Source of the DNA: Bacteroidaceae bacterium
Lineage (GTDB): Bacteria; Bacteroidota; Bacteroidia; Bacteroidales; Bacteroidaceae
Assembly (NCBI GenBank): GCA_017551925.1
Contig: JAFZKA010000100.1
Coordinates: 1 to 64,000, forward strand
DNA length: 64,000 nucleotides
Reading direction: 5' to 3'
Part shown: positions 3,768 to 31,415 of the stretch, in pieces
Layout: the number at the start of each line of letters is the position of its first letter
How positions within the stretch are numbered: position 1 is the first letter of the stretch
Translations under genes and position numbers: made by a program
The notes under the pieces: generated by a model
What the model was told of the DNA's origin: nothing
Seen by the model: only the letters and a program-made list of their open reading frames with translations
Database searches by the model: none

Positions 3768-5006
3768 ATGTTAAGCAACGTGAAATTGTCAAGGACTATT
3801 GGCAAGATGCAGGTTTTCCTGTATCTGCTTCTTTGTATCCTTACAAATTCCGCTTGCCAAAGAAAAGATCTGTACCTGAGAGTTGATGACGTAAGTATTT
3901 CTATTGCCGTCTATGATGTACGCCTTGACCTGTTATGGGGTGTCGGTTGGCAAACCGAATGGCTGTACGAATGGGATGAGTCTTTAGCAGACTTTGGAGT
4001 TTTGGGCTACACCAAGCCTGATTACGTAAAGGGAACAATCTACAATGTCAACCCCACAACGCTAAAGCGATTCAGTTCCTTCAACAAGATTTTCAATTCA
4101 AACGGAGGCCGCGTATCACTTACCACCGGAGCCACGTATGACATGCTGTTCTACAACTTTGGTACAGAGTGGACCTCATTCAACCAGTCAGAGGACTATG
4201 AGACCTACACAGCCACAACCCGTAGGAGTTCACAGTCATCATGGATACGCACCCAGTCTGACAGCCAGTTCAGTGACAAGCCCGCCAACTCCAAGTCATA
4301 CATTGACTACAACCAGCCCGATGAACTGTTCGGTACCTTGGTAACAGGCCTTCTAATCAGTGACAACCCCGCATACTATGACAAAGAGGTTGATGAGGAG
4401 GGCAATATCACATACATCTACAAGATAGACGCCAACCTGCGTCCCTACTCGTTCATTTACGTATTCCAGATAATTCTGCTCAACAATTATGATGATGAGG
4501 GAATACGCGTAACAGGCGGACGTGGCATAACCGTAACAGGCCTTTCACAGGGAGTTGACCTGTTCACACGCCAGACCCTGACAAACACCATTTCACTTAC
4601 AACCGATGATGTCAAGCCCACGCAGCACGTCAAAAACGTACAACTTGAAAACGGCCAGGTTGCTGACAGCGCCGATGTATTTGCAGTGCGCATACTCACA
4701 TGGGGCCTGCCTAAAGCCGACATACTTGAACTCAGCAGTAAGGCCGGATCAAAAGCAGAAATGGTTGATGACAACTACATAGGAATAGGCCTTGCACTGC
4801 GCAACGGTGGCACATTTACTATAACCCGCAACATTACAGACATATTGCATAATGAGAAACCCGCAGGAGGTATAGTAACCATATACATTGACTCATCACA
4901 AATCCCCAGCAGCGCATTTGAAAAGCCCAAACCCTCAGGCGGCGGAGGCTTTGACGCCAACGTAGAGGATTGGGCCGATGAGGTGAATGCAGAAGTAATA
5001 ATTTAA
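3768..5006 (+). CDS. DUF5119-like lipoprotein, first gene of the fimbrial locus
   Basis: This 412-residue predicted lipoprotein has a hydrophobic leader ending LLLCILTNSAC, with the lipobox cysteine at about residue 30, so it is exported and lipid-anchored. The mature start, CQRKDLYLRVDDVSISIAVY, resembles DUF5119 proteins, which in Bacteroides precede fimbrillin genes. Features in order are a beta-rich N-terminal part, a Thr/Ser-rich stretch near 145-170, and a second beta domain containing GGRGITVTGLSQGVDLFTRQ near 247-266. It ends in a Gly-rich linker (PKPSGGGGFDANVEDW) and a short tail. It starts 45 bp after a -7 box and is followed after 49 bp by the first fimbrillin gene. An ATG at residue 14 (MQVFLYLLL) is an alternative start and would give a more typical leader length. 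The function is unknown; it may be an accessory or anchor fimbrial subunit. Confidence 0.75.
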   Translation: MLSNVKLSRTIGKMQVFLYLLLCILTNSACQRKDLYLRVDDVSISIAVYDVRLDLLWGVGWQTEWLYEWDESLADFGVLGYTKPDYVKGTIYNVNPTTLKRFSSFNKIFNSNGGRVSLTTGATYDMLFYNFGTEWTSFNQSEDYETYTATTRRSSQSSWIRTQSDSQFSDKPANSKSYIDYNQPDELFGTLVTGLLISDNPAYYDKEVDEEGNITYIYKIDANLRPYSFIYVFQIILLNNYDDEGIRVTGGRGITVTGLSQGVDLFTRQTLTNTISLTTDDVKPTQHVKNVQLENGQVADSADVFAVRILTWGLPKADILELSSKAGSKAEMVDDNYIGIGLALRNGGTFTITRNITDILHNEKPAGGIVTIYIDSSQIPSSAFEKPKPSGGGGFDANVEDWADEVNAEVII

Positions 5007-10370: not shown

Positions 10371-11903
10371 ATGAGAGTTACAATCAAGACAACAGCAGCG
10401 TTGCTTATGACCGCTGCAATCATCGGATCATGTACAAATGATTCTGTAATCACTGAGGTAAGTCAGGTGAAAAAGGACTTTAATTCTGAGATTATCTTTG
10501 GAAACTTCGTTGGCAACAGCACACGTGCATCAAAGAAAAGCGTTGGAGAGCAGAACTTTGTCATTGGCGAGTCAATGGCAGTTTGGGGTATGCAGTTCAC
10601 CGGTGCCCAGGAGGACAGCCTTTTCATAAATCAGAAAGTTGATTATGAGGGCAATAGTGAATGGTCATATCAGAACAAGAAATACTGGAACGTAGGTTCA
10701 ACCTATGCATTCTACGGTTTCTTCCCCTACTCCAAGAATCTTTATACACTGGGTGACAACTTCTACATTAGCGTACCCAGTTACACCACCCCCAACGATC
10801 CTGACCAGCAGGTTGACCTTATGGTGGCTGAAAGAAAAGTCAACGTATCACCCTTCAACGTGGTTGATATGACTTTCCATCACATTCTGAGTAATGTGAA
10901 CATCTATGCCAAGATTGCAGGTAACCTTGACATGACCGGCATTAAACACATCCAGTTGAGCAACCTTGAGATCAAGGGCATCAAGAGCAGCGGTTCATAT
11001 GCTCAGAATGACTGGGACGAGATGGACCTCCCAGTAGGCGCATGGAGCAACCAGAGCGGTCTGATGTCAATAGATCCGTTCAGAATGGAGATTCACAAAA
11101 AGGCTGACACAATTCTGAATGACTACCTTATGATCCCGCAAAAGTTGTTTGACCTTGAGAACTCTGCCAATGACGCTCATATTGACGTAGTATTCAGGGT
11201 TGAATATACTGACGGTTCTGCCGCAACCTACACCAAGAACAACATCAGGTTTGCAGGTATGGTTTCAAATGCCAACAACATTATCTCAACATGGGAGCCC
11301 AACTACCGCTACAACTACACACTGTCATTCAACCCCGGTGCATCAACCGTTATCTGGGATGCCGATGGTGATGGCAGCCTTATCATTGATCCGCTCACAG
11401 GAGACACCCTTACCAAGACCAATGATACTCCCACCCCGGGCAGCATGAAGTATGATCCCGATGATCCAGACAACGTCCTGGTATTTGAGGATACCGATGG
11501 TGACGGCAAGCCAGACACATGGAACAAGTATCCTATCGCATGGGAGAACATTGATGATGATGACATGCTTGAGGCTGGTATAGACCGTGACGGTGACGGC
11601 AAGATTGACAACGTTGACGGTGACAACATTACCCAAATGGGTGGTGACAACCAGCACGATCCTACCGATGGCAATGCCAACAATCCCGGTGGCAAGGACG
11701 TTATTCTGGTATTCCATGACAGCGATGGTGACGGCGTAGCCGATGAGTGGATCCAGATCCAGAAAGATCCCACTAACGGTAAGATCTATCCTGAGAGAGA
11801 GACTCTGAACGCTACCATAGAGTTCACCGCCAAGGTAACAGACTGGAACGAGACCGAAGTTATCAACTACGAGGTTCGTCGTGAAGGTATAATTGGCGAA
11901 TAA
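10371..11903 (+). CDS. Fimbrillin family lipoprotein 5 with four inserted DxDGDG calcium-binding loops
   Basis: This 510-residue lipoprotein (leader ending AAIIGSC) is preceded by a GGAGAG ribosome-binding-like stretch about 10 nt before its ATG. The fimbrillin core is clear: MAVWGMQFTG near residue 65, YWNVGSTYAFYGFFP near 105, FHHILSNVNIYA near 168 and DYLMIPQKLF near 250. After the strand YNYTLSFNPGA the usual last strand is delayed by about 140 residues holding four acidic loops (DADGDG, DTDGDG, DRDGDG and DSDGDG, from about residues 327 to 455). The normal terminal strand IEFTAKVTDWNE then follows. Such loops bind Ca2+ in thrombospondin type-3, dockerin and EF-hand-like repeats. The insert would give this subunit a calcium-stabilised extension, perhaps at a fimbrial tip or branch (inference). 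Confidence 0.87.
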   Translation: MRVTIKTTAALLMTAAIIGSCTNDSVITEVSQVKKDFNSEIIFGNFVGNSTRASKKSVGEQNFVIGESMAVWGMQFTGAQEDSLFINQKVDYEGNSEWSYQNKKYWNVGSTYAFYGFFPYSKNLYTLGDNFYISVPSYTTPNDPDQQVDLMVAERKVNVSPFNVVDMTFHHILSNVNIYAKIAGNLDMTGIKHIQLSNLEIKGIKSSGSYAQNDWDEMDLPVGAWSNQSGLMSIDPFRMEIHKKADTILNDYLMIPQKLFDLENSANDAHIDVVFRVEYTDGSAATYTKNNIRFAGMVSNANNIISTWEPNYRYNYTLSFNPGASTVIWDADGDGSLIIDPLTGDTLTKTNDTPTPGSMKYDPDDPDNVLVFEDTDGDGKPDTWNKYPIAWENIDDDDMLEAGIDRDGDGKIDNVDGDNITQMGGDNQHDPTDGNANNPGGKDVILVFHDSDGDGVADEWIQIQKDPTNGKIYPERETLNATIEFTAKVTDWNETEVINYEVRREGIIGE

Positions 11904-11941: not shown

Positions 11942-11973
11942 TCACCAGGATTGGCAAAACAAACGCCTCATTT

Positions 11974-13272
11974 ATGATTAAGAAAATATTTGACATAATT
12001 AACGCAAACACAATTATCAGAAGGCCGCTCTCAAAAGTTGGCCCGCTGATGTTATTTGCTATTATCATATCTGTTTTGCCAATACTCACATCATGCAACA
12101 AGGAGCATAATGTAACAAGCATTGAAGAGGCTGACCAACTTAAAATAAAGCTAGGTTGCTCTGTTGGCACAAAGGCCGTGGTCAACAGCAAAGAGGACCT
12201 CATCAGCCAGATGAGAGCCAACGATAAAGGATTTGGAATTGTAGGATTCAAGATGGTGACAAACCCAAACGACCCCGATGACGTTGAAACAACAACACTG
12301 TTTGACAACTTTGAAGTTAAACCTGTTGACGATGCAGCATCCGCATGGGCATACAGTCCCGTCCGTTACTGGGACACCAGATCTAACGTTTTATACCAGT
12401 TCATTGGATACTGGCCAAAATTGGGTAATACTGCAAATAGCGATCAAAGCATATCAGACCCGTACGTTACCATTAATGACGACGATAAGGTTCTGACTAT
12501 CCACAATATTCCCAACTGGCAGCGTGTTGCTTTAAATGATCAAGGTGTTGCAAGTGGCAGCGGTTCTGAAATAGATTTCCTGACCTCAATCAGAGAGGGC
12601 AGTTACGCTGATTTCAATTCAGACGTAGTTGACCTGACATTCTCGCACCTGCTCTCTAAGTTCACCATCAAGGCCTACTACATTGGTCCTAAAGTTGAAG
12701 TGACACAGGAAAATCCATATGGTGTCAGGATAAAAAAGATTACGCTCAAGTCTCCCGGAGAGAATGACAAGAATGTTCTTGATGGAGTAAAAAATACCAA
12801 CAATTCTACACCTGCATCAACAGATTTCAAACGCAGCACGACTGACCTTCTTGCCACCCAGGTTACAACCGATCAGGACGTCAACGCCAACACCGTTGAC
12901 ATGGTAAACTCATACGTGTTGTTCAATGAGGAAAGTGCCAACATACAGTACAAGGATGAAATCAATGATGAGAACAACCCACACTTTACGCCCACCACAG
13001 TAGCGCAATGGCTCATGATTCCGCATGTCTGGAAAGACGTTCAGTTTGTGGTTGAGTATTCCAAAGGTTCAAGTAACGCCAGCGACACAAAGACTCAAGA
13101 GTCATCGCCCGTAACCATCGGCAAGGAATATGACGATTATGCCACACTCCCCGGCCACTCATATACTGTAACACTGTATTTTGACGTGTCAAACAGCGGG
13201 TTAAAGGTTGAATCAGTTGCAGTTGAGGAATGGACAGAGCATAATGTGACGAGAGAATTTTACAATTGGTAA
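11974..13272 (+). CDS. Fimbrillin family lipoprotein 6
   Basis: This is a 432-residue fimbrillin-like lipoprotein counted from the ATG at 11974. An in-frame ATG at 11893 overlaps the preceding gene and would add 27 residues across the hairpin, so the later start is preferred. The leader is long, MIKKIFDIINANTIIRRPLS, then a hydrophobic core ending ISVLPILTSC. Motifs are GFGIVGFKM near residue 86, YWDTRSNVLYQFIGYWP near 131 (a variant of YWD..Y.FFAYAP) and LTFSHLLSKFTIKA near 222. QWLMIPHVWKDVQFVVEY lies near 345 and the terminal strand VESVAVEEWTEHNV closes the domain. The core is complete though more divergent than fimbrillins 1-5. Confidence 0.8.
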   Translation: MIKKIFDIINANTIIRRPLSKVGPLMLFAIIISVLPILTSCNKEHNVTSIEEADQLKIKLGCSVGTKAVVNSKEDLISQMRANDKGFGIVGFKMVTNPNDPDDVETTTLFDNFEVKPVDDAASAWAYSPVRYWDTRSNVLYQFIGYWPKLGNTANSDQSISDPYVTINDDDKVLTIHNIPNWQRVALNDQGVASGSGSEIDFLTSIREGSYADFNSDVVDLTFSHLLSKFTIKAYYIGPKVEVTQENPYGVRIKKITLKSPGENDKNVLDGVKNTNNSTPASTDFKRSTTDLLATQVTTDQDVNANTVDMVNSYVLFNEESANIQYKDEINDENNPHFTPTTVAQWLMIPHVWKDVQFVVEYSKGSSNASDTKTQESSPVTIGKEYDDYATLPGHSYTVTLYFDVSNSGLKVESVAVEEWTEHNVTREFYNW

Positions 13273-13338: not shown

Positions 13339-14622
13339 ATGACGGTCAGGAACAACATACGCATTGCAGCGCTCAAGTCCACTTGGATTTGGGTAACATG
13401 CATTGTACTGACACTGTTCTCATGCGTACAAGACTCAACAAATACCAGCGCAGAAAACGGTGTCACCATCTACCCTGCCATAGCAAACAGAGTAGAGACC
13501 GCCATAGTAACCCGTACCCGTCTTGACGTAGGCAACACTACTGACAAATATGATGACGCGCTGATATCTGACGGCACAGTATTAAGGGCATACGCCGTAG
13601 AAAACACAGGAGCATCCCAGCACAATTACGGAGGTTCATTCAGATACAGCAATCATTCATGGCGCTCTTCAGTGACTGTTGAGAGCGGACACGGATATAG
13701 CATCTACGCCTTTACCCCTATCACAATGCCGGGTGCCACAAACCAGGAATTCAATTTCGGGGTAACCCAAAATAGCAACAATGAGGATGTGTTCAACCTT
13801 AATTCCACAGCCCTTTCATTTACCGGTATTGACATTCTGACAACCACTGACCCCATGGTAAGCGTAGCCGTAGCAGGCAGACAGGCACTCCTTAACAGCA
13901 ACGGGCAGGAACTTGACAACCAGGGTCATGTGATTGAGAATGAAAATATTGAGATACCTGTAATCAACAAGGGCAGTTTCAACATAGGGACAGTCACCAC
14001 TGATGTTGGAAACAATGAGGTTGAGAATCACACTTACCACAAAATATGGATGGCCATGGACCACCTGTACGCCAAGGCGACCATATCATTCTGCATAGAC
14101 CAGACATATCATCAGATTCGTGACATCCGCCTTAAGCAGGCGTGGATTACGGTAAGCAACGGTTCGTTATCGGGCAATCACGTCTATTCGTTCACGAACG
14201 GACTGACGCTTGATCCAAACGCAGCATTCAGCAGCAAAGACCTGACGATAGACCTCATGACAGGTCCGACAGCAAAAGAGAACCGTGATCATGAAAAGGA
14301 TTACGCAACACTTACAGAGGAGTACAAGGAATATTCATGGTTCTGTTTCCTGCCCATATCATACGTCCCGGAATTAACCTACCCCATGGTAACGCTCCAT
14401 GTCACGTATGATGTTTATGACAGGGACGGCAATGAAGTCAGGCTTAACCAGCCGGCACAGAACACATTCCCGCTGAATGAGTTCATAAGGGATGACCTGG
14501 CCAGGATTGTCCCCAAACCGGCGGATCATTTCAAGATAAAAGTGAAGATAAAACCATCATATCTGTATCAACTGATTGATGATGATGCTGAGATAAAACT
14601 GGATATTATTAGAACGGACTAG
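13339..14622 (+). CDS. Divergent fimbrillin-like lipoprotein 7
   Basis: This 427-residue lipoprotein has a leader with the core TWIWVTCIVLTLFSC. It lacks the clear YWD...FFAYAP strand of its neighbours and has instead a segment with GHGYSIYAFTPITMPG near residue 117. The central strand is represented by IWMAMDHLYAKATISF near 235, and a late strand WFCFLPISYVPELTYPMVTL lies near 335-354. Position, leader, size and beta-rich character make it a probable distant fimbrillin or tip/minor subunit. It ends 13 bp before the first giant gene, the closest spacing in the train, which hints at coupled translation of the two. Confidence 0.68.
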   Translation: MTVRNNIRIAALKSTWIWVTCIVLTLFSCVQDSTNTSAENGVTIYPAIANRVETAIVTRTRLDVGNTTDKYDDALISDGTVLRAYAVENTGASQHNYGGSFRYSNHSWRSSVTVESGHGYSIYAFTPITMPGATNQEFNFGVTQNSNNEDVFNLNSTALSFTGIDILTTTDPMVSVAVAGRQALLNSNGQELDNQGHVIENENIEIPVINKGSFNIGTVTTDVGNNEVENHTYHKIWMAMDHLYAKATISFCIDQTYHQIRDIRLKQAWITVSNGSLSGNHVYSFTNGLTLDPNAAFSSKDLTIDLMTGPTAKENRDHEKDYATLTEEYKEYSWFCFLPISYVPELTYPMVTLHVTYDVYDRDGNEVRLNQPAQNTFPLNEFIRDDLARIVPKPADHFKIKVKIKPSYLYQLIDDDAEIKLDIIRTD

Positions 14623-14635
14623 ACAACCATATAAG

Positions 14636-17600
14636 ATGAAGATATTCAACCATATATACAAGCCGTTACCCTTCGACCTCAAGTCGTGGGGGTTGCTGCT
14701 TTTATTGACTATCGGCGCTTTTATGCACGCGCAGGCGCAGTTGGTCATAGGCGGTAATGTATATGGCGGCGGTGACAAGGGTAACGTGGGCGGCTCCACT
14801 TCAGTCCAGGTCATTTCAGGTGACATTGAGGGCAGTGTATTTGGTGGTGCACGTATGGCAAATGTAAGCGGGAACGCATCTGTTGACATTGACGGTGTAA
14901 CAGAGGGTTCATCAAACTACACCCTGATTGACCGCGTATATGGCGGAAATGACATAGCGGGAACCATTGGTACAGCCAGTGCAATACCCGCCAACCTGAA
15001 CAAGGCAACTGCCGATGAGGTTGACAACACATGGAACACATTCGTTCATATCTCTGACGGCGGCAATGACAATCAAGGCAATCCCAACAAGAAAATATAC
15101 ATCGGCCAGTTGTTCGGCGGCGGAAACGGCGAATATGATTACGACTCTCAAGAACTTGCCAACGGTGATGTAAGACACATAATTTACCGGAAATCACACG
15201 CTGTTGGTGACGCTCCGGTTGCCGAAGTGACAACTCCCGCGAATGGTGCAGGTTTTGTAGTACCTGACCTGCAAAAGACTTATGTTGACATTCAGGGCGG
15301 CTCAATTGTGTACGCTTACGGAGGTGGCAACAATGCTACTGTAACCGAGAGCACCGTTATCCGTGTTGAAAACCCCAGTTCCGTTATTAACAGCATAGTT
15401 GATGAAAGGATTCTGAATGATGAGATAAACAACACTATCTCTGCCCAAGGAGAACTGCTTACTGACGCCCGTTTCAAGAACCAGATGGGTATAAACACCG
15501 GTTTCTCCAAGCCCAACAGTGACGAATTCCAGATTGAACGTCTTTTTGGCGGCAACAATATGGCTGAAATGGCAATACGTCCCTTGTGGCATCTTCAGAG
15601 CGGTAAGGTACGCAACATTTACAGTGGCGGTAACCGCGGTATGATGTCCAGCCCTGAAGGTCTGCTGCTAGACATTCAGGAGGGCTCAACCATCATAGTT
15701 GACAATTTGTACGGCGGCTGTCGTATGGCCGATGTGCGTCCGTTGCAGTTTGACCATAACGGCGAGCATATCCTTGACGAACAAGGCCATGTTCAGGATA
15801 TGGATGTCATCCAGTTGACACATCCCGTTTACACATTCCCGGCAGGATTTGCAGCCAGAACAGTGATTCACGGCGGCGATGTTAACAACGTATATGGCGG
15901 TAACGATATTACCGGTCAGGTTTATGGAGGTAATGCCGTAGGTCTGTACACCAGCATTCGCGGAAACCTGTATGGCGGCGGAAACGGTTCATATCCCTAT
16001 ACTGACAAACCGGCCATGAAAGGTCATGACATATATGGTGATTTGTATTATGACCCGGATCAGATCCTGGCCGATGCAGGTATTACGGAATTTGATCCTA
16101 ACCTGAAATCAGTAACCGCCCTTAATGAATTCCGCCCCGATGCAGAGCAGGTATCTATACACCTGATAGGTACCGACGAGGACCACCCGACCATTATCGG
16201 CGGATCAGTTTATTGCGGCGGCAACAGCGCCACGATAAAGTCAAAGAGCATCACAGGTGACCGCAAAGTAGAACTCAAGGTCGGTTCATACGTTATTGCC
16301 GATAATGTTTTCATGGGCAACAACGGTGAAAACATGATTGACACCGACATCCTTAAGTTCTACTCAGGGAGCATTAACCCGGAAACAGGAGAACTGGTAG
16401 AAAACGGCACAGAAGGATCTGTCGATTACAGTTCCATGAACCTTTTGGATCCTGGTCAGTTCGCCACTTACATGGATGGAGCAGCCATGGATCTTATTCC
16501 TAACGTAACCTTTGACAATACCCAAAACGGGCTGGACCGTTTTGATTACGTTGACTATTCCACTTACATTGGCTCATTCTACTGGGGCGGTAACGTAGGC
16601 AGTATGACATATGCCGGCACCAACAAGATGGACATGTATGCCAAAGTTGTTGTTTATAACAAAATTGTTGGAGGCTGCAACAGCGCTTATGTAGTTGCTA
16701 CAGACTATAATGCTGAATATGATGGTGGACTGTTAGGTGCCAAAGATGAGGACAATTATACCGGTAACCGTCTGATAATGAATATTGACGGCCCCAAGAT
16801 TGAGCCCAAAAGGTGGGCCGATGACACCAAGACTGAACTCGTATGGAACACATTCAAGTGGGATGACGATACTGATAACGGATTCATTCCTATAGGCACA
16901 GACAACAGTAATGAAGACATTGACCGACGTCTGTTAGGCGGCAACATATATGGCGGATGCTACAACAGCGGCCATGTGAACGGCAACATAGTCATAAACA
17001 TCAACAATGACCTGATAAACAGGGATGAGGTCTTTGCAGAACTGGCATATGAGGATGAAGATGATCCTGAATCATACTATATTGACCCCAACGGTGAACG
17101 CAACTCTGGCGTAATACTTGATGAGCAGGCATTTGACGTAAACACCGTGGCACTGACGGTATTCGGAGCCGGTAAGGGTAAGAACACTGAGGTTTGGGGT
17201 AGCACTACCGTAAACCTTAACAGTGGCTATGCGTTCCAGATATTCGGCGGCGGCGAGGAAGGCGTGGTTGGCAAGGGTAACGTCAAACTTGACAACAACC
17301 AGGTGGTCAAGGATGAAAACGGATATCCCGTTAAAGAATATGCTTTCAACCTTGCTTACAGCACCACGGTCAACATGAGCGGCAGTACCCCATACTACCC
17401 GGGCGATGAAAATATGCCCGAAGGCCTGCCTCAGAGCGAATATCTGTACGGAGCAGGCAATGAGGGCGACGTTTGCGGTAACTCAAACGTATATCTGGGC
17501 AACGGTCTCATATATGATGCATTTGGCGGCGCCACTAATGCGAACATACTTGGCCAGTCCAGGGTTTATATCGGACGTCAGATTGACAGTGAAGGCAACA

Positions 17601-20600
17601 TTACAAGCGGATTCCCGAATGTAACTGATATTGTCTATGGTGGAAATGACTTTGGCGGCCACATTGAGGGTGAGCATACTGATAGTTATAGTTTTACAAG
17701 CCGTGTTAGGGACTGGGATAATGACAAAACCATGATTTACGGCTATGACAATACGCAACCCTCTAAAGTTCCCAATGTCCTCAAGGCTGCATCATATGTA
17801 GAATATCTGCAAGGAAGCGTTGACACCATATTTGGCGGGGCATACGGCAACTATGATTATGATGATCCCGAATTCTACGTTGATCACCACAAGGCAGATA
17901 TGCCTTATGTACACAGCACATTCGTGAACTTCAGGCCTGACAACGTCAATCAGAATACCGTAAACGCTGTTTTCGGCGGTAGCACCGGATACCTTGGCAA
18001 CCGTGACGGAGATAAATCACTTGACCACAGTTATGTGCTGGTAGATATCCCTTATAATGTTGAAAACTACCGCAATACGGAGTTTTTCGGCTCCGGAAGT
18101 TATGGAGGACTTGGTATGAGAAAGACAGTCCTGCCTATGAGCAAACCGGCAGACAATGCAACTGATGAGCAAAAAGCCGAATATAGCGAATATCTTGAAG
18201 AGTTGGACGAGTCATCAGCAATAATAGACCTGATTCGCGGTAAGGTAGGTGCTGCATACGGCGGCAGTTACAATGAGGGTATAACCCGCCGTTCAGTAGT
18301 GAATGTTCCGCAAGGTTCAACAATTGACATAGGCAGCATATTCGGCGGCGCTTACGGCAACGTGACCTTAAGTCCGTGTGATGTATATGAGGCTAACGTA
18401 AACTATCACAGTGCCGATGCCGTGCTCACAGCCAGTCCGCGCAGATTTGATTCGCAGACAGGTAAATATATTGGCAATGACTTACTTAGAGGCGCAATCT
18501 ACGGTGGCAACAACAACCGTCGCCGCACTCTGTACAGCAAGGTAACCATTGATGCTCCGGTTCGTCAGAATCACTGGAATTACGGAAACACAACCGGCAC
18601 TGTATATGGAGCCGGTTGCGGTAACAACACCTGGTCAGAATACACTGAGGTCAACCTGTTGCCTGGAGCAGAGGTTTATGAGGTTTACGGTGGCGGTGAG
18701 GACGGATTGGTCATTAACGCTCAGAGTATCCAAAAATACATCAACGAGTTTGCAGCCATTCAGGGTCTTGGACTGCCCAAGGATGGTGAAACTCCGTCTC
18801 AAGCAGCAAGCCGTTTTGAAGATGAACTGGAACAATGGAAAGACGGTTGGACTCTTGGTGGAGGTTACGATTCCGGTCTTGAAGCTGAAATTGACAACTT
18901 CACTTCATTTACAGGCAACAACGGCACATATTACAGGACCAACACATACACCAATCTTGAGAACCCGTTGGTACGCAGAGCCGTTGAGTATGACAATGGG
19001 ACATATAACACCAACGTTATTATCCATCAGGGTGCAACCGTTGACGGTTATGCATACGGTGGTGGTCTGGGACACAAAGGCAAGGAACAGTCAGGAAACA
19101 TTTACGGAACGACATACATTGCACTGCTTGGCGGAACTGTAAGCAAGGACCTTTATGCTGCAGGTACAACCGGTGCCATTATGGATGCATTTGGAGTTGG
19201 TTCCCAAGGTGAAGGCGGATATACTGCCGGCACAACAGCATACATTGAGGGTGGTTCTGTACGTAACGTGTATGGCGGCGGATGGGAAGGCAACGTAGGA
19301 TACCACGTCGGCACAACAGAGAACCCCAACAGTACTGCAACCGATGTACCGGGACGCACCAATGTGGTTATAGGCATACGTCCTGAGGTGGCTCAGACAA
19401 CATACTACAAGGGTGATCCTGCCATCCAGCGTAACGCATACGCCGGTGGTGAGGGCGGTGCCGTAATCGGTCAGGCAAATATCACCATAAACAACGGTCA
19501 TATAGGATATATCCACCTTGCAGACGGCCAGGCCATTGGCGAGAACGGCAAAATCATCAGTTCACCGGGTGCCACAGCACAATATGTTGAAAAAGTTGAT
19601 GATGAGACCTACTATGACAGTAACGACAAGAACCGTTGGTTGGGCAAGAACCGTCTTGAAGATTACGGCAATGTATTCGGTAGCGGATTTGATGACCTGA
19701 GCAGTGTTGATGAATCAAACGTATCTATTTACGGCGGTGTTATCCGCAACAGCGTATTCGGCGGCGGTGAGATTGCTACCGTAGGTCGTGGCGCATCAGC
19801 CGGTGAACTTGGTCAGGTTAACATTTACAAGGCCGGAAAGACCAACATTTACATGTACAACGGCCTTGTAAAGCGCAACGTGTTCGGCGGCGGCAAGGGC
19901 TACAATAAACTTGGATACGGAAACTCTCATTCTCTGTACACCCAGGGTTACGTATTTGGCCAGACCGATGTTAACATATACGGAGGTGAGATTGGAACAG
20001 ACGAAGGTATCGCTCAAGGTTACGGTAACGTATTTGGCGGTGGAGACCAGGGATTTGTATTCAGTGCATATGACTACCCCAACGGACGCCTTGGTCTGGG
20101 TAAGAAATACGGTGCAAGATATGATGACGGTGAAGAAGGTTATTACTATAAGACTCTGAACGGCGTACCTACTGACAATAACGGCAACACCTTGACAGCA
20201 AATGCAGAAAAGTACATGACAGAGGACTGCCACGTACTTATTGAGCCATGGCTACAGATAAAGCCAGGAGCAGGAAGCATAACCATAGGCGGTAAGACAT
20301 ATAATGAGGGTGACTATGTTCCCACATCTTATCTTAACACTCTGCCCAAGAAAGGTGATGCATGGAGCGGTAACTGGACAAAACTTGATGTCGGTGACCT
20401 GCAGCGCGGTGAGCGCGGTGTTATAATTCATAATGCCGTATTTGCCGGAGGTAATGTATCATCGGGCAGTGATATAAGTGCAAATACAAAGACCGTTTAC
20501 GGTAATGCCACCGCATCAATCAATGATGTTTATCACCGTGACCTGATAACCATTGGTACCGGACGTATCGGAGGCCTGTACGGTGATGGCAACCTGACTT

Positions 20601-23600
20601 TTGTTGACGGTTACCGCGAGTTGAACATTACCAACTACGGAACTGACTTCTATCACATTGATCCGGATATCAACATTGACGTCTATGAAGGTCTGCCTGA
20701 ACGTGAAAAGGCATACTACGAACTTAAGTACAAATGCGTAAAAGAGTGTATTGACATTGAGGGCACCAAATACTCGGTAGGCTCATCCATACCTCAGGAT
20801 CAGTTGGTAGCATTATTTACCGGCAAGGATGACATCTTGAACGCTGACGGCACTCCCAACCAGACTTATTGGGTCAAGAGCGGTATTCTGCTTAGAGCAC
20901 CCGGTCGTACAATGAACACCTTGCAGAGAGCAGATTTCTGCGGTGTATTCGGCAGTCGCCTGGTTATGCAGGGTGCACGTGACCGCGTACCTGAGGTGGT
21001 TGATTACACCAACTACACCATTAACCGTGTACGTGAGGTTTCTCTGAACAAGCGTGTATCAACAGCAGGTGACACTGATGACAAGGACAAGGAGCACGGC
21101 AACTACTTTGGTATTTACAGCGTAGTTAACTATCTGGGCGCCTTGACCAGTGACGTTGATTTTGGTGATGAGACCAATACCGGTGCAAAACGTGTAACTG
21201 AAAATCAGGATGCAGTAACATACAAATCAGACATCACTATTGGAGGCAACACCTATCATTATACTGATGACCAATACACCTACTACAACTGGAAGAAAGC
21301 GCACATAACAGACCGCACACGTAACAATGGTAGCAGTCATAATCAGGTGGCTCTTGCATCGGGTGTATATCTGGAACTGACAAATGAGAAAGTTCTGACC
21401 GAGGAGAACACTACCGGCATTGACCTGTATGACAAGGATTGGGGTATCATTACCGGTGTTGTAGAATTGGATCTTATCAACGTTTCCACCGGTTTGGGAG
21501 GCGGCTTTGTATATGCCAAGAACGTTCACGGAACACGCAGCAACACAGGCAAGAGACAGACTACACTTTCTGCGCTTAATGAAGGTGCCGCAACCAAAAA
21601 GAAATACAGATATTCAGGCGCAAACTCCAATGACCACTGGGAGTCTTCAGGTAACTTTGTACACAGTACCCAAACTATCATTGATGACTGCTACAACATG
21701 AGTGGCCGTTTCTATGATGATGAATCAAATGAAATAGCAGCAGTTCCTGCCCACTACTGGTTCATCAAGGGTCAGATTTATCTGTATGACCAGGTTATTT
21801 CAGCATATACAGGTGCGCCTAACGCATACAGTGAGCAGGTTAACATACCGCTTACCATATCGGCAGGAGCAAACGGAAGAATGAAACTGCTTGAAGTTCA
21901 GCCTAACCTGTACGCATACTACCAGACATACAATGAAAATGTCAAAACGCCGCTTACACCAACAAGCAAACTGGTGCTGAATGATATTACATACGGTCTG
22001 AATGACCCCATCAGTTACTGGGAATGGCAAAAGTTAAGCAAGGCAGAGCAGAAACTCTTTGTACCTGAGACCTATGTGGTAATTGAAGACTGCAAGATTG
22101 GTGATGACACATTCTATGAAGGAACAGTACTGCTTCAATCACAGTATGACGCATTATTTGTAAATAATGCCAAGCCCACCAACGTTACTCACAAGAAAAT
22201 GGTTGATGGCGTAGAAACCGATGTGGCTGTTGACTTTGACTTTGTATTCCGCTCATCAAACAACCTGAGCCACAACACAGGTTACATACTGACTTACAAT
22301 GTTGACAATCCTTTGGCTTGGGATAAGTGGTACTCGCCTGTAAGCGGTTCATCAAGTCAGGACAAGGTTAATTCTGAAGTAATCAAGACAAAAGAACAGT
22401 CCGACTATAATGACGGTCCTACATATACGCCTGTTCAGTCAGGTCTATACGGGCAGTATGAGTACAATCCGGCCGACATTATTGCAAAAGAAATATATGA
22501 CAAATACAATACAGCCTGGGGTAAATACACAGCCACAACTGACTGGACAGGACTGACAGATGCCCAGAAAGAGGAGAAACAGGCAACACAGGCAACATTT
22601 GAGCGTGCCTATGTTACTACAGCAGTTGTTAATGCGAACAAGTTGAGAGGTAACGGAACAGGCGCCATACATCTGCAAAAGGGTGCAGCCTTGGCTATGT
22701 CAGAATACAGTGAAAGTCTTGAAAATCCTTCATGGCCGTCTGAACTGACAGGCAATGTTGAGCCTGCATTTGTATGCACCAGCACCATCAAATTATCAGA
22801 TTCGGAGTTCATTACTGCCGGAGAACTCATGACCGAGGCCAAGAAGAACAGTTATATAACCGCCATTGATGCCCGCATCAACAGCCTGCCAGAAGGCGAT
22901 CCTGGCAAGTCAACACTGCAGACCATCAAGAAGGAAATCAACAACTTTATTGTTGAGGCTTACTACTGCACTTCAGATACCAAGAAAATGTATGGCGGTG
23001 ATTACTACGAGAGTGGTCATAACTATCGTGCCCTTAACGCCTGGAGTTCAATGTCAGAGTCCGACAGGGAACACTTTAAGTTCAACTATGATGCCCTTGA
23101 CCTGCTCATTGATCCAGCATATTCCGGAAACTCCGGTCATAAGTATCAGTATGATTCTGAACTTGCGACTTTTGAAGCGGCTCAAGCCAACAAGGCACAA
23201 TACTCATTGGATAACGCCCTTGACTATACCGCCCAGTACAACGGAGCTGAGTCTTTGCAATATAAGACCGATGCCGACACTGATAGTACCGCAACTCAAG
23301 GTACCATCCTTAGCCGTACAGAATTTGAGCGTCTGCCCAATGAGCAGAACAACTACGCACCAATTAAGGTTGGCAAGGAAGGTGCTCTGTATATTGTGAA
23401 CACAGAATTCACCCATAACGAGCCGTTTGCAGTAGGTCAAATCATATCCAAGGATACCTATGACAACCTGACTGTCAATGAAACTCTCAATGAGAAACAG
23501 TTTGTTACCACGCTTACATTTGCCACAACTGACATAGGCAAGACATACTACTATTGCCGCAGGAAATACACCATTGACACTAACGTAGGTAAAGCTGTTA

Positions 23601-26600
23601 AGGCTGTTTGGGATAATGGTAGCATAAAAGCCGGTACAATCAAAGAACCCGGACAGGAAGTTCCCGTTGGTTTCATTATCAGCCAGACAGGCAATGATAC
23701 TGAACCAGCATATCAATATCAATATGGTTACCTCAGCCTTATAAACCAGCAAAAGAACTTCAGCATACACGGCAAGGCACCTGTTGAGACCAGTACATTG
23801 TATGTAAGCCGTAACTCTGACATTTATGACCTTAGTCAGGAAAAGATAATAACTGTAGTTTATCAGTATGACTATGAGGAGAGTGATGAGACTGGCTACA
23901 ATATCACTCCTGTAAGTGAGCGTCACGTGCTTAACATTCACCTGCAGTTCAAGAGTGGTATTCCTACCATTGATGACATTATGAGTCCTGACCTTGTATT
24001 GCCTGGAACAAGCGTTGCTCTCCGCACTCCTGAGATTACCCCGGGAGCATATGAGATCATTGACCGCGGATGGGAACTGTTCGAGAGAGAAAGTTTTGCT
24101 GAGAGTCATGTAAACGGTGTAGAATACGCACCTGGCGCAGACCCGCTATACTGGTATCAGGACGGTTACTACGTTGCATTCTACGCCAAGACATATCTGG
24201 GTAAGACCTACTCCAATTACGTGCCCGTTAGCGTAGCCAACTATCATGACCTGCGTAGCGTGATGGCTGATAAGGAGAACCACATGTTTGTAGATTATGA
24301 TCGCACCAAACTGAAACGCAACAGTAAGATTTACATCAATGACTACAGTTCAGTTAATCAGAACGGACTTGACCTGCTCAAGGATCTGTATGACTTGAGT
24401 CTTATCTCTGAGCAATCAGCCGGAGTTGACCAAGGTGTGGTTAAGATTGCCGGTAATCTTTATGATCACGCAATACTTAACACCAGCACAGAGACCGGCA
24501 ATGACTTGTCAGGCAAGAGTGTAGTTAAGGGCGTAAGAGGCGCAACCAACCTTGACTTTATACTGCGCACCAATTTAGATCATTCAGGCAGCAGTTGGAC
24601 ATCAATAGGCACAGATGATGCTTGCTTCAACGGTACTCTGCATGGTGACGGTTACACGATAAGCGGCCTTACCAGTTCACTCTTTGACCACCTGTGCGGT
24701 GATGTCTATAACTTGGGTGTTACCGGTTCATTTACCGGCTCAGGTATTGCCGAAAGCGGTGACGGTTACGTGGAGAACTGCTGGATAAGCACAACTTCAA
24801 CTGAGGCTAAGACCTCTAAGCCAATCTATGGTGGTAATCCTACTACCGATAGAATCCAGATTGTCAACAGTTACTACATGGAGAATGACAATGCCACGAA
24901 TCCATACACTGTTACCAGCACGAACGGTACTCCTATCCGCAAGACTGAACAACAGTTCTATAATGGTGAGGTTGCATACAGTCTGAACGGATTCTATCTG
25001 AACCGTCGCTACTATAACGGCACCAACCAGAGTTCAGGTAATGCATACCACTACTTAGACTCAAAGAACAGCAACAGTCTGGAGACCATCTACTATCCCA
25101 ACAATGCAAATGCCAACTTCGGTTATCTGGGTTACGTTGAGGACCGCTACGCCGATGGTGACTACCGCTTTGCTGCCGGAAACACTGAGACTGAAAATGA
25201 CCAGCATCAGGTATATGAGCATGAGGAAGATACCAAACCTATCTTTGCTCCTGTATGGCCCGATGACTACATCTACTTTGGTCAGAACCTGACATTCGGC
25301 TATGAAGACAACAAGCCTCATCAGTCAGAACCTGCCCACTATTATACTACTGCCGTAACATCGAACCGCGTATATCGTGCACCCGCATACTACGGCAACA
25401 GTACAATGAGTGTTGCATACTTTAACCCCGATGCAGTTCTGCCTGCTACAATAAAGAGCGATGCAACCAAACCTGCATATAAGGGATTGACAGCCATTGA
25501 CTTTACCGGTTATAATGACAGGAGTTATGAGCAAGGCCTGAACAGTGACATGTTCTATGCTCCGTTGCTTGACTTTGACGTATTGCGCAGTCTGCGTACC
25601 GACGGTCAGACACAGAACATGCTGGCATATACTTTGGCAACCGATGAAGCAACAACTGCTGTCATCAATGACTACTTTGTAGAGCCTGAATATGCAATGT
25701 ATGCAAACATACTTGATGACAACGGCACACCCACAAACAATGCTAATGAGTATGAGAGCATACGCAAGGTTGATGACAATACCGTAACCAAGGTACGCGG
25801 TCACCTTGTAATCAAACAGGAGAACGGCACATATCAGGCTGCTCAGGATCAGTTCCTGGTTGACAAGCAAGACTTTAACGCTCCTATCAGTTACATTATG
25901 GGCACAAGGACTCAGAACAGCAATACATATGATAACATCATATGGTATCAGCGTACACCTGACGTATTTGTCCGCAATGCCGGTAATGGCTGGGAGAGCA
26001 TAAGCCTGCCGTTCACTGCCAAGAGAGTTACCACCAGCCAGAAGGGTTGGATAACCCACTTCTATCAGGGCAGTAAGACTGGTCATGAGTACTGGCTGCG
26101 TACACCTGACAAGATGGATGAAACCGATGCAACAGGCAAGAAGGTATTGTTCAAGTCAATTGCCAAAGCAAGTGCTGATGATATAGCAAACGGCAACGGT
26201 GCTGACATCACATACAACAACAGATTCCTGAGCAAGTACTACTACAACAAGAACTTAGGATATGATGCCAACTCTGACACATACCACCAGGAGTACTACA
26301 GTTCAGATGTTGAGTATGAAAAGTATCCGTTCGCTGCCGCAACTCAGCCGTACCTGATTGGATTCCCAAGTGAAAGGTATTATGAGTTTGACATGAGCGG
26401 TAACTTTGAACCTCAGAACACCGCAGCAACCACACCTGACAAGCTTGACAGGCAGACTATCACATTTGTATCAGACTGGAACAACGCTAATGTTACAATT
26501 AACGTAACAGATGATGATTACCTGACTGAGGCAACAGTTGAAGGAGCCGACTACAAGTTCAAGCCCACATATCAGGTTCAGGTACTCCCAGGCGCCAACA

Positions 26601-27007
26601 CCTATCTGATGAATGATGATGGTACCGCATTCCTGAATGACATTGTTAACAGCACGGTTGAAACCGTTCCGTTCCGCGCATACTTCACTACCCCATCGGG
26701 CAGTCATGCACAAACTCGTTCGGCTATCACCCGCTCTGCAGTTGCGAACGCCCTGTACATTGGCTACGCAGGTGATCAGGATGACCTTGAGGATGTTGCA
26801 TCACACGGAGGTCTGTTCATCTACGGACAGGATATGAGCATCTACATTGAGAGCAGTCTTGACTACGAGACTCATGTAACCATAACCACCGTAGCCGGTA
26901 AGACTCTCAAGCAGTTCACCATCCAACCCGGCGCCAAGGTTCAGGTACCGGTCAACAGCCGCGGTGTTTACATTGTAAACCACAAGAAGATTGCAGTTAC
27001 AAAATGA
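14636..27007 (+). CDS. Secreted giant YGGG-repeat protein, 4,123 residues, with sorting-like C-terminus
   Basis: This giant exported protein begins with a signal peptide (hydrophobic GLLLLLTIGAFMHAQAQ at about residues 19-35). Its mature part opens with the solenoid unit GGNVYGGGDKGNVGG. Residues about 36-1,800 are glycine-rich beta-solenoid-like units built on [VI][YF]GGG with intervening V.I.GG strands. Residues about 1,860-3,000 hold a second, Tyr/Cys-richer repeat with segments such as GKTYNEGDYVPTSYLNTL, GTKYSVGSSIPQDQLVAL and FAVGQIISKDTYDNL. Residues about 3,270-3,420 contain a GLUG-like stretch (GTLHGDGYTISGLTSSLFDH). The last 500 residues include GWESISLPFTAKRV and end in a beta domain, VTITTVAGKTLKQF to RGVYIVNHKKIAVTK, that resembles type IX secretion sorting domains or related Bacteroidales C-terminal tails. 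It is probably a cell-surface adhesin or stalk; the family is otherwise unrecognised. Confidence 0.85.
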   Translation: MKIFNHIYKPLPFDLKSWGLLLLLTIGAFMHAQAQLVIGGNVYGGGDKGNVGGSTSVQVISGDIEGSVFGGARMANVSGNASVDIDGVTEGSSNYTLIDRVYGGNDIAGTIGTASAIPANLNKATADEVDNTWNTFVHISDGGNDNQGNPNKKIYIGQLFGGGNGEYDYDSQELANGDVRHIIYRKSHAVGDAPVAEVTTPANGAGFVVPDLQKTYVDIQGGSIVYAYGGGNNATVTESTVIRVENPSSVINSIVDERILNDEINNTISAQGELLTDARFKNQMGINTGFSKPNSDEFQIERLFGGNNMAEMAIRPLWHLQSGKVRNIYSGGNRGMMSSPEGLLLDIQEGSTIIVDNLYGGCRMADVRPLQFDHNGEHILDEQGHVQDMDVIQLTHPVYTFPAGFAARTVIHGGDVNNVYGGNDITGQVYGGNAVGLYTSIRGNLYGGGNGSYPYTDKPAMKGHDIYGDLYYDPDQILADAGITEFDPNLKSVTALNEFRPDAEQVSIHLIGTDEDHPTIIGGSVYCGGNSATIKSKSITGDRKVELKVGSYVIADNVFMGNNGENMIDTDILKFYSGSINPETGELVENGTEGSVDYSSMNLLDPGQFATYMDGAAMDLIPNVTFDNTQNGLDRFDYVDYSTYIGSFYWGGNVGSMTYAGTNKMDMYAKVVVYNKIVGGCNSAYVVATDYNAEYDGGLLGAKDEDNYTGNRLIMNIDGPKIEPKRWADDTKTELVWNTFKWDDDTDNGFIPIGTDNSNEDIDRRLLGGNIYGGCYNSGHVNGNIVININNDLINRDEVFAELAYEDEDDPESYYIDPNGERNSGVILDEQAFDVNTVALTVFGAGKGKNTEVWGSTTVNLNSGYAFQIFGGGEEGVVGKGNVKLDNNQVVKDENGYPVKEYAFNLAYSTTVNMSGSTPYYPGDENMPEGLPQSEYLYGAGNEGDVCGNSNVYLGNGLIYDAFGGATNANILGQSRVYIGRQIDSEGNITSGFPNVTDIVYGGNDFGGHIEGEHTDSYSFTSRVRDWDNDKTMIYGYDNTQPSKVPNVLKAASYVEYLQGSVDTIFGGAYGNYDYDDPEFYVDHHKADMPYVHSTFVNFRPDNVNQNTVNAVFGGSTGYLGNRDGDKSLDHSYVLVDIPYNVENYRNTEFFGSGSYGGLGMRKTVLPMSKPADNATDEQKAEYSEYLEELDESSAIIDLIRGKVGAAYGGSYNEGITRRSVVNVPQGSTIDIGSIFGGAYGNVTLSPCDVYEANVNYHSADAVLTASPRRFDSQTGKYIGNDLLRGAIYGGNNNRRRTLYSKVTIDAPVRQNHWNYGNTTGTVYGAGCGNNTWSEYTEVNLLPGAEVYEVYGGGEDGLVINAQSIQKYINEFAAIQGLGLPKDGETPSQAASRFEDELEQWKDGWTLGGGYDSGLEAEIDNFTSFTGNNGTYYRTNTYTNLENPLVRRAVEYDNGTYNTNVIIHQGATVDGYAYGGGLGHKGKEQSGNIYGTTYIALLGGTVSKDLYAAGTTGAIMDAFGVGSQGEGGYTAGTTAYIEGGSVRNVYGGGWEGNVGYHVGTTENPNSTATDVPGRTNVVIGIRPEVAQTTYYKGDPAIQRNAYAGGEGGAVIGQANITINNGHIGYIHLADGQAIGENGKIISSPGATAQYVEKVDDETYYDSNDKNRWLGKNRLEDYGNVFGSGFDDLSSVDESNVSIYGGVIRNSVFGGGEIATVGRGASAGELGQVNIYKAGKTNIYMYNGLVKRNVFGGGKGYNKLGYGNSHSLYTQGYVFGQTDVNIYGGEIGTDEGIAQGYGNVFGGGDQGFVFSAYDYPNGRLGLGKKYGARYDDGEEGYYYKTLNGVPTDNNGNTLTANAEKYMTEDCHVLIEPWLQIKPGAGSITIGGKTYNEGDYVPTSYLNTLPKKGDAWSGNWTKLDVGDLQRGERGVIIHNAVFAGGNVSSGSDISANTKTVYGNATASINDVYHRDLITIGTGRIGGLYGDGNLTFVDGYRELNITNYGTDFYHIDPDINIDVYEGLPEREKAYYELKYKCVKECIDIEGTKYSVGSSIPQDQLVALFTGKDDILNADGTPNQTYWVKSGILLRAPGRTMNTLQRADFCGVFGSRLVMQGARDRVPEVVDYTNYTINRVREVSLNKRVSTAGDTDDKDKEHGNYFGIYSVVNYLGALTSDVDFGDETNTGAKRVTENQDAVTYKSDITIGGNTYHYTDDQYTYYNWKKAHITDRTRNNGSSHNQVALASGVYLELTNEKVLTEENTTGIDLYDKDWGIITGVVELDLINVSTGLGGGFVYAKNVHGTRSNTGKRQTTLSALNEGAATKKKYRYSGANSNDHWESSGNFVHSTQTIIDDCYNMSGRFYDDESNEIAAVPAHYWFIKGQIYLYDQVISAYTGAPNAYSEQVNIPLTISAGANGRMKLLEVQPNLYAYYQTYNENVKTPLTPTSKLVLNDITYGLNDPISYWEWQKLSKAEQKLFVPETYVVIEDCKIGDDTFYEGTVLLQSQYDALFVNNAKPTNVTHKKMVDGVETDVAVDFDFVFRSSNNLSHNTGYILTYNVDNPLAWDKWYSPVSGSSSQDKVNSEVIKTKEQSDYNDGPTYTPVQSGLYGQYEYNPADIIAKEIYDKYNTAWGKYTATTDWTGLTDAQKEEKQATQATFERAYVTTAVVNANKLRGNGTGAIHLQKGAALAMSEYSESLENPSWPSELTGNVEPAFVCTSTIKLSDSEFITAGELMTEAKKNSYITAIDARINSLPEGDPGKSTLQTIKKEINNFIVEAYYCTSDTKKMYGGDYYESGHNYRALNAWSSMSESDREHFKFNYDALDLLIDPAYSGNSGHKYQYDSELATFEAAQANKAQYSLDNALDYTAQYNGAESLQYKTDADTDSTATQGTILSRTEFERLPNEQNNYAPIKVGKEGALYIVNTEFTHNEPFAVGQIISKDTYDNLTVNETLNEKQFVTTLTFATTDIGKTYYYCRRKYTIDTNVGKAVKAVWDNGSIKAGTIKEPGQEVPVGFIISQTGNDTEPAYQYQYGYLSLINQQKNFSIHGKAPVETSTLYVSRNSDIYDLSQEKIITVVYQYDYEESDETGYNITPVSERHVLNIHLQFKSGIPTIDDIMSPDLVLPGTSVALRTPEITPGAYEIIDRGWELFERESFAESHVNGVEYAPGADPLYWYQDGYYVAFYAKTYLGKTYSNYVPVSVANYHDLRSVMADKENHMFVDYDRTKLKRNSKIYINDYSSVNQNGLDLLKDLYDLSLISEQSAGVDQGVVKIAGNLYDHAILNTSTETGNDLSGKSVVKGVRGATNLDFILRTNLDHSGSSWTSIGTDDACFNGTLHGDGYTISGLTSSLFDHLCGDVYNLGVTGSFTGSGIAESGDGYVENCWISTTSTEAKTSKPIYGGNPTTDRIQIVNSYYMENDNATNPYTVTSTNGTPIRKTEQQFYNGEVAYSLNGFYLNRRYYNGTNQSSGNAYHYLDSKNSNSLETIYYPNNANANFGYLGYVEDRYADGDYRFAAGNTETENDQHQVYEHEEDTKPIFAPVWPDDYIYFGQNLTFGYEDNKPHQSEPAHYYTTAVTSNRVYRAPAYYGNSTMSVAYFNPDAVLPATIKSDATKPAYKGLTAIDFTGYNDRSYEQGLNSDMFYAPLLDFDVLRSLRTDGQTQNMLAYTLATDEATTAVINDYFVEPEYAMYANILDDNGTPTNNANEYESIRKVDDNTVTKVRGHLVIKQENGTYQAAQDQFLVDKQDFNAPISYIMGTRTQNSNTYDNIIWYQRTPDVFVRNAGNGWESISLPFTAKRVTTSQKGWITHFYQGSKTGHEYWLRTPDKMDETDATGKKVLFKSIAKASADDIANGNGADITYNNRFLSKYYYNKNLGYDANSDTYHQEYYSSDVEYEKYPFAAATQPYLIGFPSERYYEFDMSGNFEPQNTAATTPDKLDRQTITFVSDWNNANVTINVTDDDYLTEATVEGADYKFKPTYQVQVLPGANTYLMNDDGTAFLNDIVNSTVETVPFRAYFTTPSGSHAQTRSAITRSAVANALYIGYAGDQDDLEDVASHGGLFIYGQDMSIYIESSLDYETHVTITTVAGKTLKQFTIQPGAKVQVPVNSRGVYIVNHKKIAVTK

Positions 27008-30473: not shown

Positions 30474-30593
30474 ATCATTTGAAACGACAACGTGGCAAAA
30501 TATATAGGACATAGCAAAGCATCGCAAGCGGCAATGAAGAAACAAGCTGCAACACCGCAGAATGTCGGCGCAAAAATAGCGCAGACCGACTTC

Positions 30594-30623
30594 TTTGCGT
30601 ATATATGTATGTTCTTAACCTTG
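30594..30623 (+). promoter_or_regulatory. Candidate promoter of the Abi/HEPN gene
   Basis: TTTG (30594-30597) is followed after 18 nt by TAACCTTG (30616-30623), one mismatch from TAnnTTTG, about 73 bp before the preferred start codon at 30696. Independent transcription would be expected for an inserted gene. This is a weak-to-moderate call. Confidence 0.35.
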
Positions 30624-30695
30624 TTTAATGATACCATTTATCGTGAATGCAATCTTGAACCCAGAAAACATAGTCCATACCAATTAATTGAATAT

Positions 30696-31415
30696 ATGAA
30701 ATACACAGAATTTGAAAGAATCATCTCACAGAAGCGTTTAAGACGCTATGTGCAAGCCTGCGGCGGCAACACCCGCAAAGCCATGACTCTGTATCGGTAC
30801 AATTCTGAGCTTGCTCAATCAGTGTTTGCTATTGTTGGTCTTTTTGAGGTTGCATTAAGAAATGCCATAGATAGAGAACTAACAAAGTCATTTGGTGATC
30901 AATGGTTAAAAGATTCATGTTTACCTAACGGTATCTTTGACATTCCTAATACCCATAAGACATGCACCATTATAAGCAATGCATATAGCAGGCTTAGTCG
31001 AGATGGTTTATACTCACATACAAAACTTTTGGCCGAGATGGAATTCGGCATATGGAAGTATATGTTTTCACCTGTTCAATATAGACAAACAGGAAGGACA
31101 TTGTTGCATATATTCCCCAACAGGCCACGTTCATCGGCTCAAGCACAATATAACTCATCATATGTTTTCAATGAGTTAGATAAAATCAACACCCTACGTA
31201 ACAGGATTGCTCACCATGAGCCAATATGCTTCCATACGCAGGGATGTGATATTTACACGGACTACATTCTAAATGAGTATAGAAAGATTATAACTCTGCT
31301 TGAATGGATGGGAATTGATAGTATGGGTTTATTATATGGATTAGATCATGTGACAAAAGTTTGTAACAAGATAGACAGATTAAGGCCACATATAAAACAA
31401 AACCCACCAGCTTGA
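30696..31415 (+). CDS. Abi_2-family protein with HEPN RNase-type motif
   Basis: This 239-residue cytosolic protein begins MKYTEFERIISQKRLRRYVQ. It matches Abi family (Abi_2 / AbiD-F type) proteins, which have HEPN-like folds and are known or suspected RNases in abortive-infection phage defence. Family landmarks are LYRYNSELAQSVFAIVGLFE followed by VALRNAIDREL near residues 29-60, and the HEPN motif R-x4-H as RNRIAHHEP (Arg 168, His 173). An in-frame ATG at 30492 would add 68 residues, but that part has no family resemblance and precedes a candidate promoter, so the later start is chosen. It sits alone between two paralogous surface-protein genes, has no exported signal and looks like an inserted gene. 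No separate antitoxin is seen beside it. Confidence 0.8.
   Translation: MKYTEFERIISQKRLRRYVQACGGNTRKAMTLYRYNSELAQSVFAIVGLFEVALRNAIDRELTKSFGDQWLKDSCLPNGIFDIPNTHKTCTIISNAYSRLSRDGLYSHTKLLAEMEFGIWKYMFSPVQYRQTGRTLLHIFPNRPRSSAQAQYNSSYVFNELDKINTLRNRIAHHEPICFHTQGCDIYTDYILNEYRKIITLLEWMGIDSMGLLYGLDHVTKVCNKIDRLRPHIKQNPPA

Follow-up and report, generated by a model that had tools for sequence, protein, structure and literature searches.

A fimbrillin of a Bacteroidaceae bacterium carries a conserved, probably calcium-binding domain directly before its final strand

The stretch of DNA analysed here (the window) comprises 64,000 nucleotides of contig JAFZKA010000100.1 from a Bacteroidaceae bacterium and contains a fimbrillin operon. 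Its first gene, a candidate anchor, matches DUF5119 (3768..5006, plus strand) and is followed by four fimbrillins and then by the gene under study (10371..11903, plus strand), which encodes a protein of 510 aa. Downstream, likewise on the plus strand, lie a fimbrillin-like gene whose product ends in YNW (11959..13272), a gene without a terminal Trp, the product of which ends YLYQL..DDD.. (13339..14622), and the gene for a giant glycine-rich repeat protein of 4123 aa (14636..27007), a candidate tip adhesin with a weak T9SS-like tail, for which no Pfam family was found at E 0.01. In all five named loci (5/5), one or more genes bearing the inserted module described below are likewise followed by the YNW gene, then by the Trp-less gene and finally by a similar large gene. 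A single match to C25 peptidases is present in the genome; the open frame concerned is 1251 residues long, and we take it to be PorU-like by its length only. Elsewhere in the window, a 307-aa gene (30492-31415) sits between giant repeat genes, and its product is presumably Abi-like, judged by eye. An open frame without interruption, about 11,860 codons long and encoding a giant protein, runs from 35259 to 63998 and on to about position 70844 of the contig (G000:C104; L068), following two glycine-rich-repeat proteins of 1134 and 1214 aa.

The product of 10371-11903 belongs to the type V pilins. Residues 51-324 (10521..11342) form the Mfa_like_1 core, delimited by Pfam and by structural comparison, with a match to PF13149 at E 6.5e-24 and 85.7 bits against a curated cut-off of 27, and the list of whole-protein structural similarities was topped by type V pilins, the best being 4qb7 (VIA-align, Z 19.3, rmsd 3.1, 265 residues). 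A lipoprotein signal extends to the lipobox residue Cys21 (10371..10433), and a T-R-A-S motif at residues 51-54 (10521..10532) is a candidate processing site by analogy with Arg49 of Mfa1, as given in the available text of PMC5789003. C21, T51, R52 and S54 are invariant in 14/14 orthologs, and the product would thus be a surface lipoprotein that is cleaved at an Arg. At the other end, the final strand, IEFTAKVTDW, comes after the insert (11814..11846) and closes with Trp492, which is invariant in all 14 orthologs and lies where the aligned range of our model with Mfa1 5nf3 ends (492 / 554). The C-terminal tail beyond this Trp (11847..11900) is a candidate donor segment, based on its sequence and on analogy with the tail of Mfa1 in the accessible part of PMC5789003.

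Between the core and the final strand lies the inserted module, residues 323-481 (11337..11813), as delimited by the ortholog and module alignments and by the module model. The original prediction of a fimbrillin with four DxDGDG loops inserted ahead of its final strand was confirmed by the motif positions together with the Pfam match; the insert does lie between the last two strands, but its length had been put at about 140 residues, and the net insertion is nearer 150 relative to the closest insertless relative (L051), in which nine residues separate the NP motif from the final strand, compared with about 160 here. DxDGDG motifs start at residues 330, 374, 405 and 450. They correspond to Loop 0 (DADGDGSLIID, residues 330-340, 11358..11390), Loop 1 (DTDGDGKPDTWN, residues 374-385, 11490..11525), Loop 3 (DRDGDGKIDNVD, residues 405-416, 11583..11618) and Loop 4 (DSDGDGVADEWI, residues 450-461, 11718..11753), all on the plus strand. 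Loop 2 (NIDDDDMLEAGI, residues 393-404, 11547..11582, plus strand) is degenerate in this protein, reading NIDDDD at residue 393 where many relatives read DIDGDG. Loop 3 has the exact EF-hand loop spacing of 1,3,5,9,12 and conforms to the 12-residue pattern DxDxDGxIDxx(D/E). When the insert was shuffled 20,000 times, 19,694 shuffles contained no DxDGDG and the maximum was two per shuffle, compared with the four observed; DNA sites fitting the motif number ten in the whole genome, four of them inside this gene. All six sister fimbrillins lack DxDGDG, and a looser form of the motif, Dx[DN]x[DN]G, matches once in gene 7745. Antisense open frames over the insert (e.g. 11315-11773, minus strand) were set aside as a by-product of repetitive codons.

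The loop residues expected to hold the metal are also those that are kept. Taking EF-type positions 1, 3, 5, 9 and 12 as predicted ligands, we find D, N or E at the 19 ligand acids in 95% of the 35 module copies, compared with 54% at the 20 other acids of the insert (Mann-Whitney p 7e-7, a generous value because the module alignment leans on the motifs). The insert is probably a calcium-binding domain; its sequence does not distinguish a structural from a regulatory calcium.

An acid-rich insert might instead be disordered, serving as a linker or spacer that has no specific metal sites, and the 33 Asp within residues 324-481 would suit such a role. However, the insert folded alone from the 35-copy alignment was predicted with confidence (pLDDT 81.7, pTM 0.79) as strands and loops throughout, so that the disordered linker envisaged beforehand as the refuting outcome did not occur. 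Confidence was low for module residues 20-36 (protein residues about 340-356), which speaks for disorder. Together with the nearly fixed ligand positions and a conservation above that of the core, the fold prediction makes a mere linker very improbable. The full-length model was moderate (pLDDT 68.6, pTM 0.53), with blocks of the insert at 48-78 and the tail below 50.

A second possibility is that a known calcium domain, namely an EF-hand pair, a dockerin or a thrombospondin type 3 repeat, has been inserted into the pilin. The EF-hand spacing of Loop 3 is supportive of this, as are weak Pfam matches to EF-hand and a weak TSP_3 profile match in 1/35 module members (E 0.044), and a PDB sequence search with the 35-row module alignment, while returning non-significant matches only, placed calmodulin first (E 0.56) with parvalbumin among the best. 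Against this, the first module member had no Pfam family over the cut-off and the other members gave weak E-values only, with no dockerin family among the Pfam matches listed for the 35 members. The module model moreover has no helix of four or more residues, by which an EF-hand pair and a dockerin were ruled out. The full protein and its 14-row alignment matched nothing in the PDB sequence search up to E 1. Foldseek with the module gave a best E of 1.4 in the PDB and of 1.7 in a viral library, and VIA-align gave a Z of 2 or more in none of 261 chains, a missing fold match that is no proof of a new fold. On this evidence we regard a known calcium domain as unlikely.

The position of the insert seems to be of particular interest, as it coincides with the joint between subunits. 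In VIA-align comparisons, of which the ranges give the first and last aligned residues only, the alignment of prepilin FimA (6jzj, 6jzk, 4q98) reaches model residue 493 or 494, while that of FimA from the polymer (6kmf_A) stops at residue 323, where the insert begins; Trp554 of Mfa1 5nf3 aligns at residue 492. The two FimA end points fit the last strands swinging out to the next subunit, as described for type V pilins by Xu et al. (cited in PMC5789003) and by Shibata et al. (cited in PMC8795688). According to the models, the insert site would thus be the point at which polymerised FimA sends its donor arm out of the body. In Mfa1, according to the available text of PMC5789003, a proline-rich segment (residues 503-539) shortly ahead of the last strand and its Trp holds a metal that was modelled as Ca2+, and the last six residues are essential for polymerisation. 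The Mfa1 metal segment lies at the same site, so that this site is known to accept a metal-binding insertion in a type V pilin, and the module represents such an insertion in a far larger form that is folded and, in relatives, repeated.

Across relatives, the insert is the most conserved part of the protein, with a mean pairwise identity among the 14 orthologs of 0.64, compared with 0.51 for the core and 0.41 for the tail. A search of the genus gave matches in 20/37 genomes and 14 full-length genes, the present one included, all of which carry the insert. For wider searches, we built a profile of 35 module copies. Fourteen come from the orthologs, two from a different genus and one from a protein that is no fimbrillin, and 18 are slices cut from tandem copies. 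Among 399 genomes sampled from the family, this profile found the module in 17, spread over 3/30 genera. In 16 of the 17 it lies inside fimbrillins, in one to about five copies. That none of the six sisters has the insert holds within the window. In related genomes, however, longer versions often occur as tandem neighbours, in genes of about 560-913 residues with between two and about five modules and up to 15 loops. Beyond the family, the 35-copy profile detected the module in 345 phylum-wide genomes only in the source genome itself, a 14-row profile detected it in none of 393 genomes of the order beyond the source genome, and plasmid and phage records gave no match at 1e-8. Five named records bear the module, from sheep reticulum, reindeer and yak reticulum and from two isolates named RUG and RUI, which we presume to be of ruminant origin as well. 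A fimbrillin of another genus (L054, open frame 1456-2598) has a single DxDGDG loop, DTDGDGDIDDDDD, in the same hairpin.

In the seventeenth genome (G013), the module lies in frame within an otherwise unrelated secreted protein (L017 / L052, G013:C34:29460-29966) and is 81% identical in DNA to a copy in G033, which suggests transfer of the module between genes, with the reservation that the contig ends within the module-bearing gene and that an assembly fault is possible. Between G027 and G003, the first ~850 bases of the gene are 96-100% identical; identity is then 74-86% across the module and for the most part 50-72% in the gene that follows, a pattern that reads as an exchange break near the module start. 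In this comparison, L009 and L011 are mosaic, with a near-identical pilin core and a sharp drop in identity at the module, about base 2300 in gene orientation, indicating a recombination break inside the pilin gene. In the core tree, which leaves out L022 (anchor motif not found), partial duplicate rows and L017, the insertless close relative L051 is nested among module bearers. Over its 31 rows the module label needs two changes, with four long branches unsure, so that one origin of the module with one loss is possible.

These distributions bear on what the calcium might do. Given the location of the insert exactly between body and donor arm, the module could be a hinge that frees or holds the arm by Ca2+ and thereby controls polymerisation of the subunits (control of assembly by calcium was raised in the original prediction), and PilY1 of type IV pili offers a precedent for calcium-dependent pilus biogenesis. 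However, all six sister fimbrillins and the nested relative L051 do without the module, and a range of one to about five copies would hardly be tolerable for a tuned switch. Calcium in the gut is probably saturating, which we also count against gating. Because copies vary and relatives do without, an assembly switch is less likely than display, and we consider calcium gating improbable. Of the original reading, the conserved calcium-loop insert directly before the donated strand has stood, while calcium control of assembly received no direct support, the change in copy number and the nested insertless relative pointing to display.

If the module is displayed, it might be so at the end of the filament. 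It could be a ligand-binding head near the distal end that works with the giant protein of the operon, a reading that overlaps with the one we favour and differs in the place along the filament. Two points are supportive of this: the gene neighbours the last two fimbrillins and the giant protein both in the window and in 5/5 named loci, and there is the precedent of Mfa5 in Porphyromonas gingivalis, described in the available part of PMC7835359 as a T9SS-exported tip protein with metal-binding parts from a five-gene pilus cluster. On the other hand, the protein retains Trp492 and an intact C-terminal tail, a trait of shaft proteins that donate a strand (PMC5789003, as far as available), and by this analogy it would suit a strand donor in the shaft or in a subterminal position. 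The match of the giant to a T9SS tail is weak (E 0.94), and we know of no ligand for the module. We thus see a tip or near-tip adhesin as a possible but somewhat doubtful role.

Comparison with known systems places the protein close to, but apart from, each of them. With the shaft pilin Mfa1 of P. gingivalis (5nf2, 5nf3) it shares the type V pilin fold, the conserved Trp, the C-terminal tail and a metal site just before the final strand, predicted here and modelled as Ca2+ in Mfa1 (PMC5789003, available text). Mfa1 has a 37-residue proline-rich segment with one metal, whereas here a folded domain of ~150 residues carries four or five DxDGDG-type loops and is tandemly repeated in relatives. FimA (6jzj, 6jzk, 6kmf) has the same fold and strand-exchange architecture and, to our knowledge, no comparable insert. 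Mfa5 is likewise a pilus-cluster protein with metal-binding insertions, with a vWF domain inserted in an Ig-like domain, Mg2+ and a Ca2+-binding loop, but it is exported by the T9SS and the available part of PMC7835359 does not describe a DxDGDG module for it. The loops resemble in motif and spacing the Dx[DN]xDG calcium loops of calcium blades, EF-hands and thrombospondin, which are mostly extracellular according to the accessible text of PMC3123361, although the module as a whole matched no family or fold in our searches. The same source describes a Dx[DN]xDG calcium site that regulates pilus function in PilY1, a beta-propeller protein of an unrelated pilus type and fold. Judging by titles and abstract openings in the open-access literature, we found no description of a fimbrillin with a DxDGDG insert.

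On balance, we favour the view that this protein displays a Ca2+-stabilised domain at the subunit joint of a type V pilus, which we hold to be moderately probable. By family resemblance, the processed lipoprotein subunit would enter the filament by strand exchange, with a compact beta domain of ~150 residues inserted at the turn that leads from the last body strand to the final strand with its tail. Four or five loops, presumably occupied by Ca2+, would hold this domain together. In the polymer, the insert would link the subunit body to its donated arm, which would place the domain at each joint, probably projecting from it. The Ca2+ would most likely be structural, being saturated outside the cell and locking the domain in its folded state, and the domain may be displayed for adhesion or as a spacer rather than act as a switch; the change in copy number and the insertless nested relative speak for such a displayed, structural role. 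Here we also offer the more speculative and quite unlikely proposal that a new calcium-loop fold in the joint, on folding with extracellular Ca2+, puts the donor arm under tension or frees it and so permits polymerisation only outside the cell. In this proposal, tandem copies would set how far the joint reaches, and the module would spread between proteins as a unit.

Type V pili are the pili of the Bacteroidales, a major group of gut bacteria, and in the structures compared here the subunit body is joined to the donor arm by a turn or a short segment. A conserved, repeated and probably calcium-held domain at this joint may offer a handle on whether cargo can be loaded there and on whether ions influence assembly. 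In addition, the module is a candidate new calcium-loop domain, and it could mark the lineage of a group with named relatives largely of ruminant origin.
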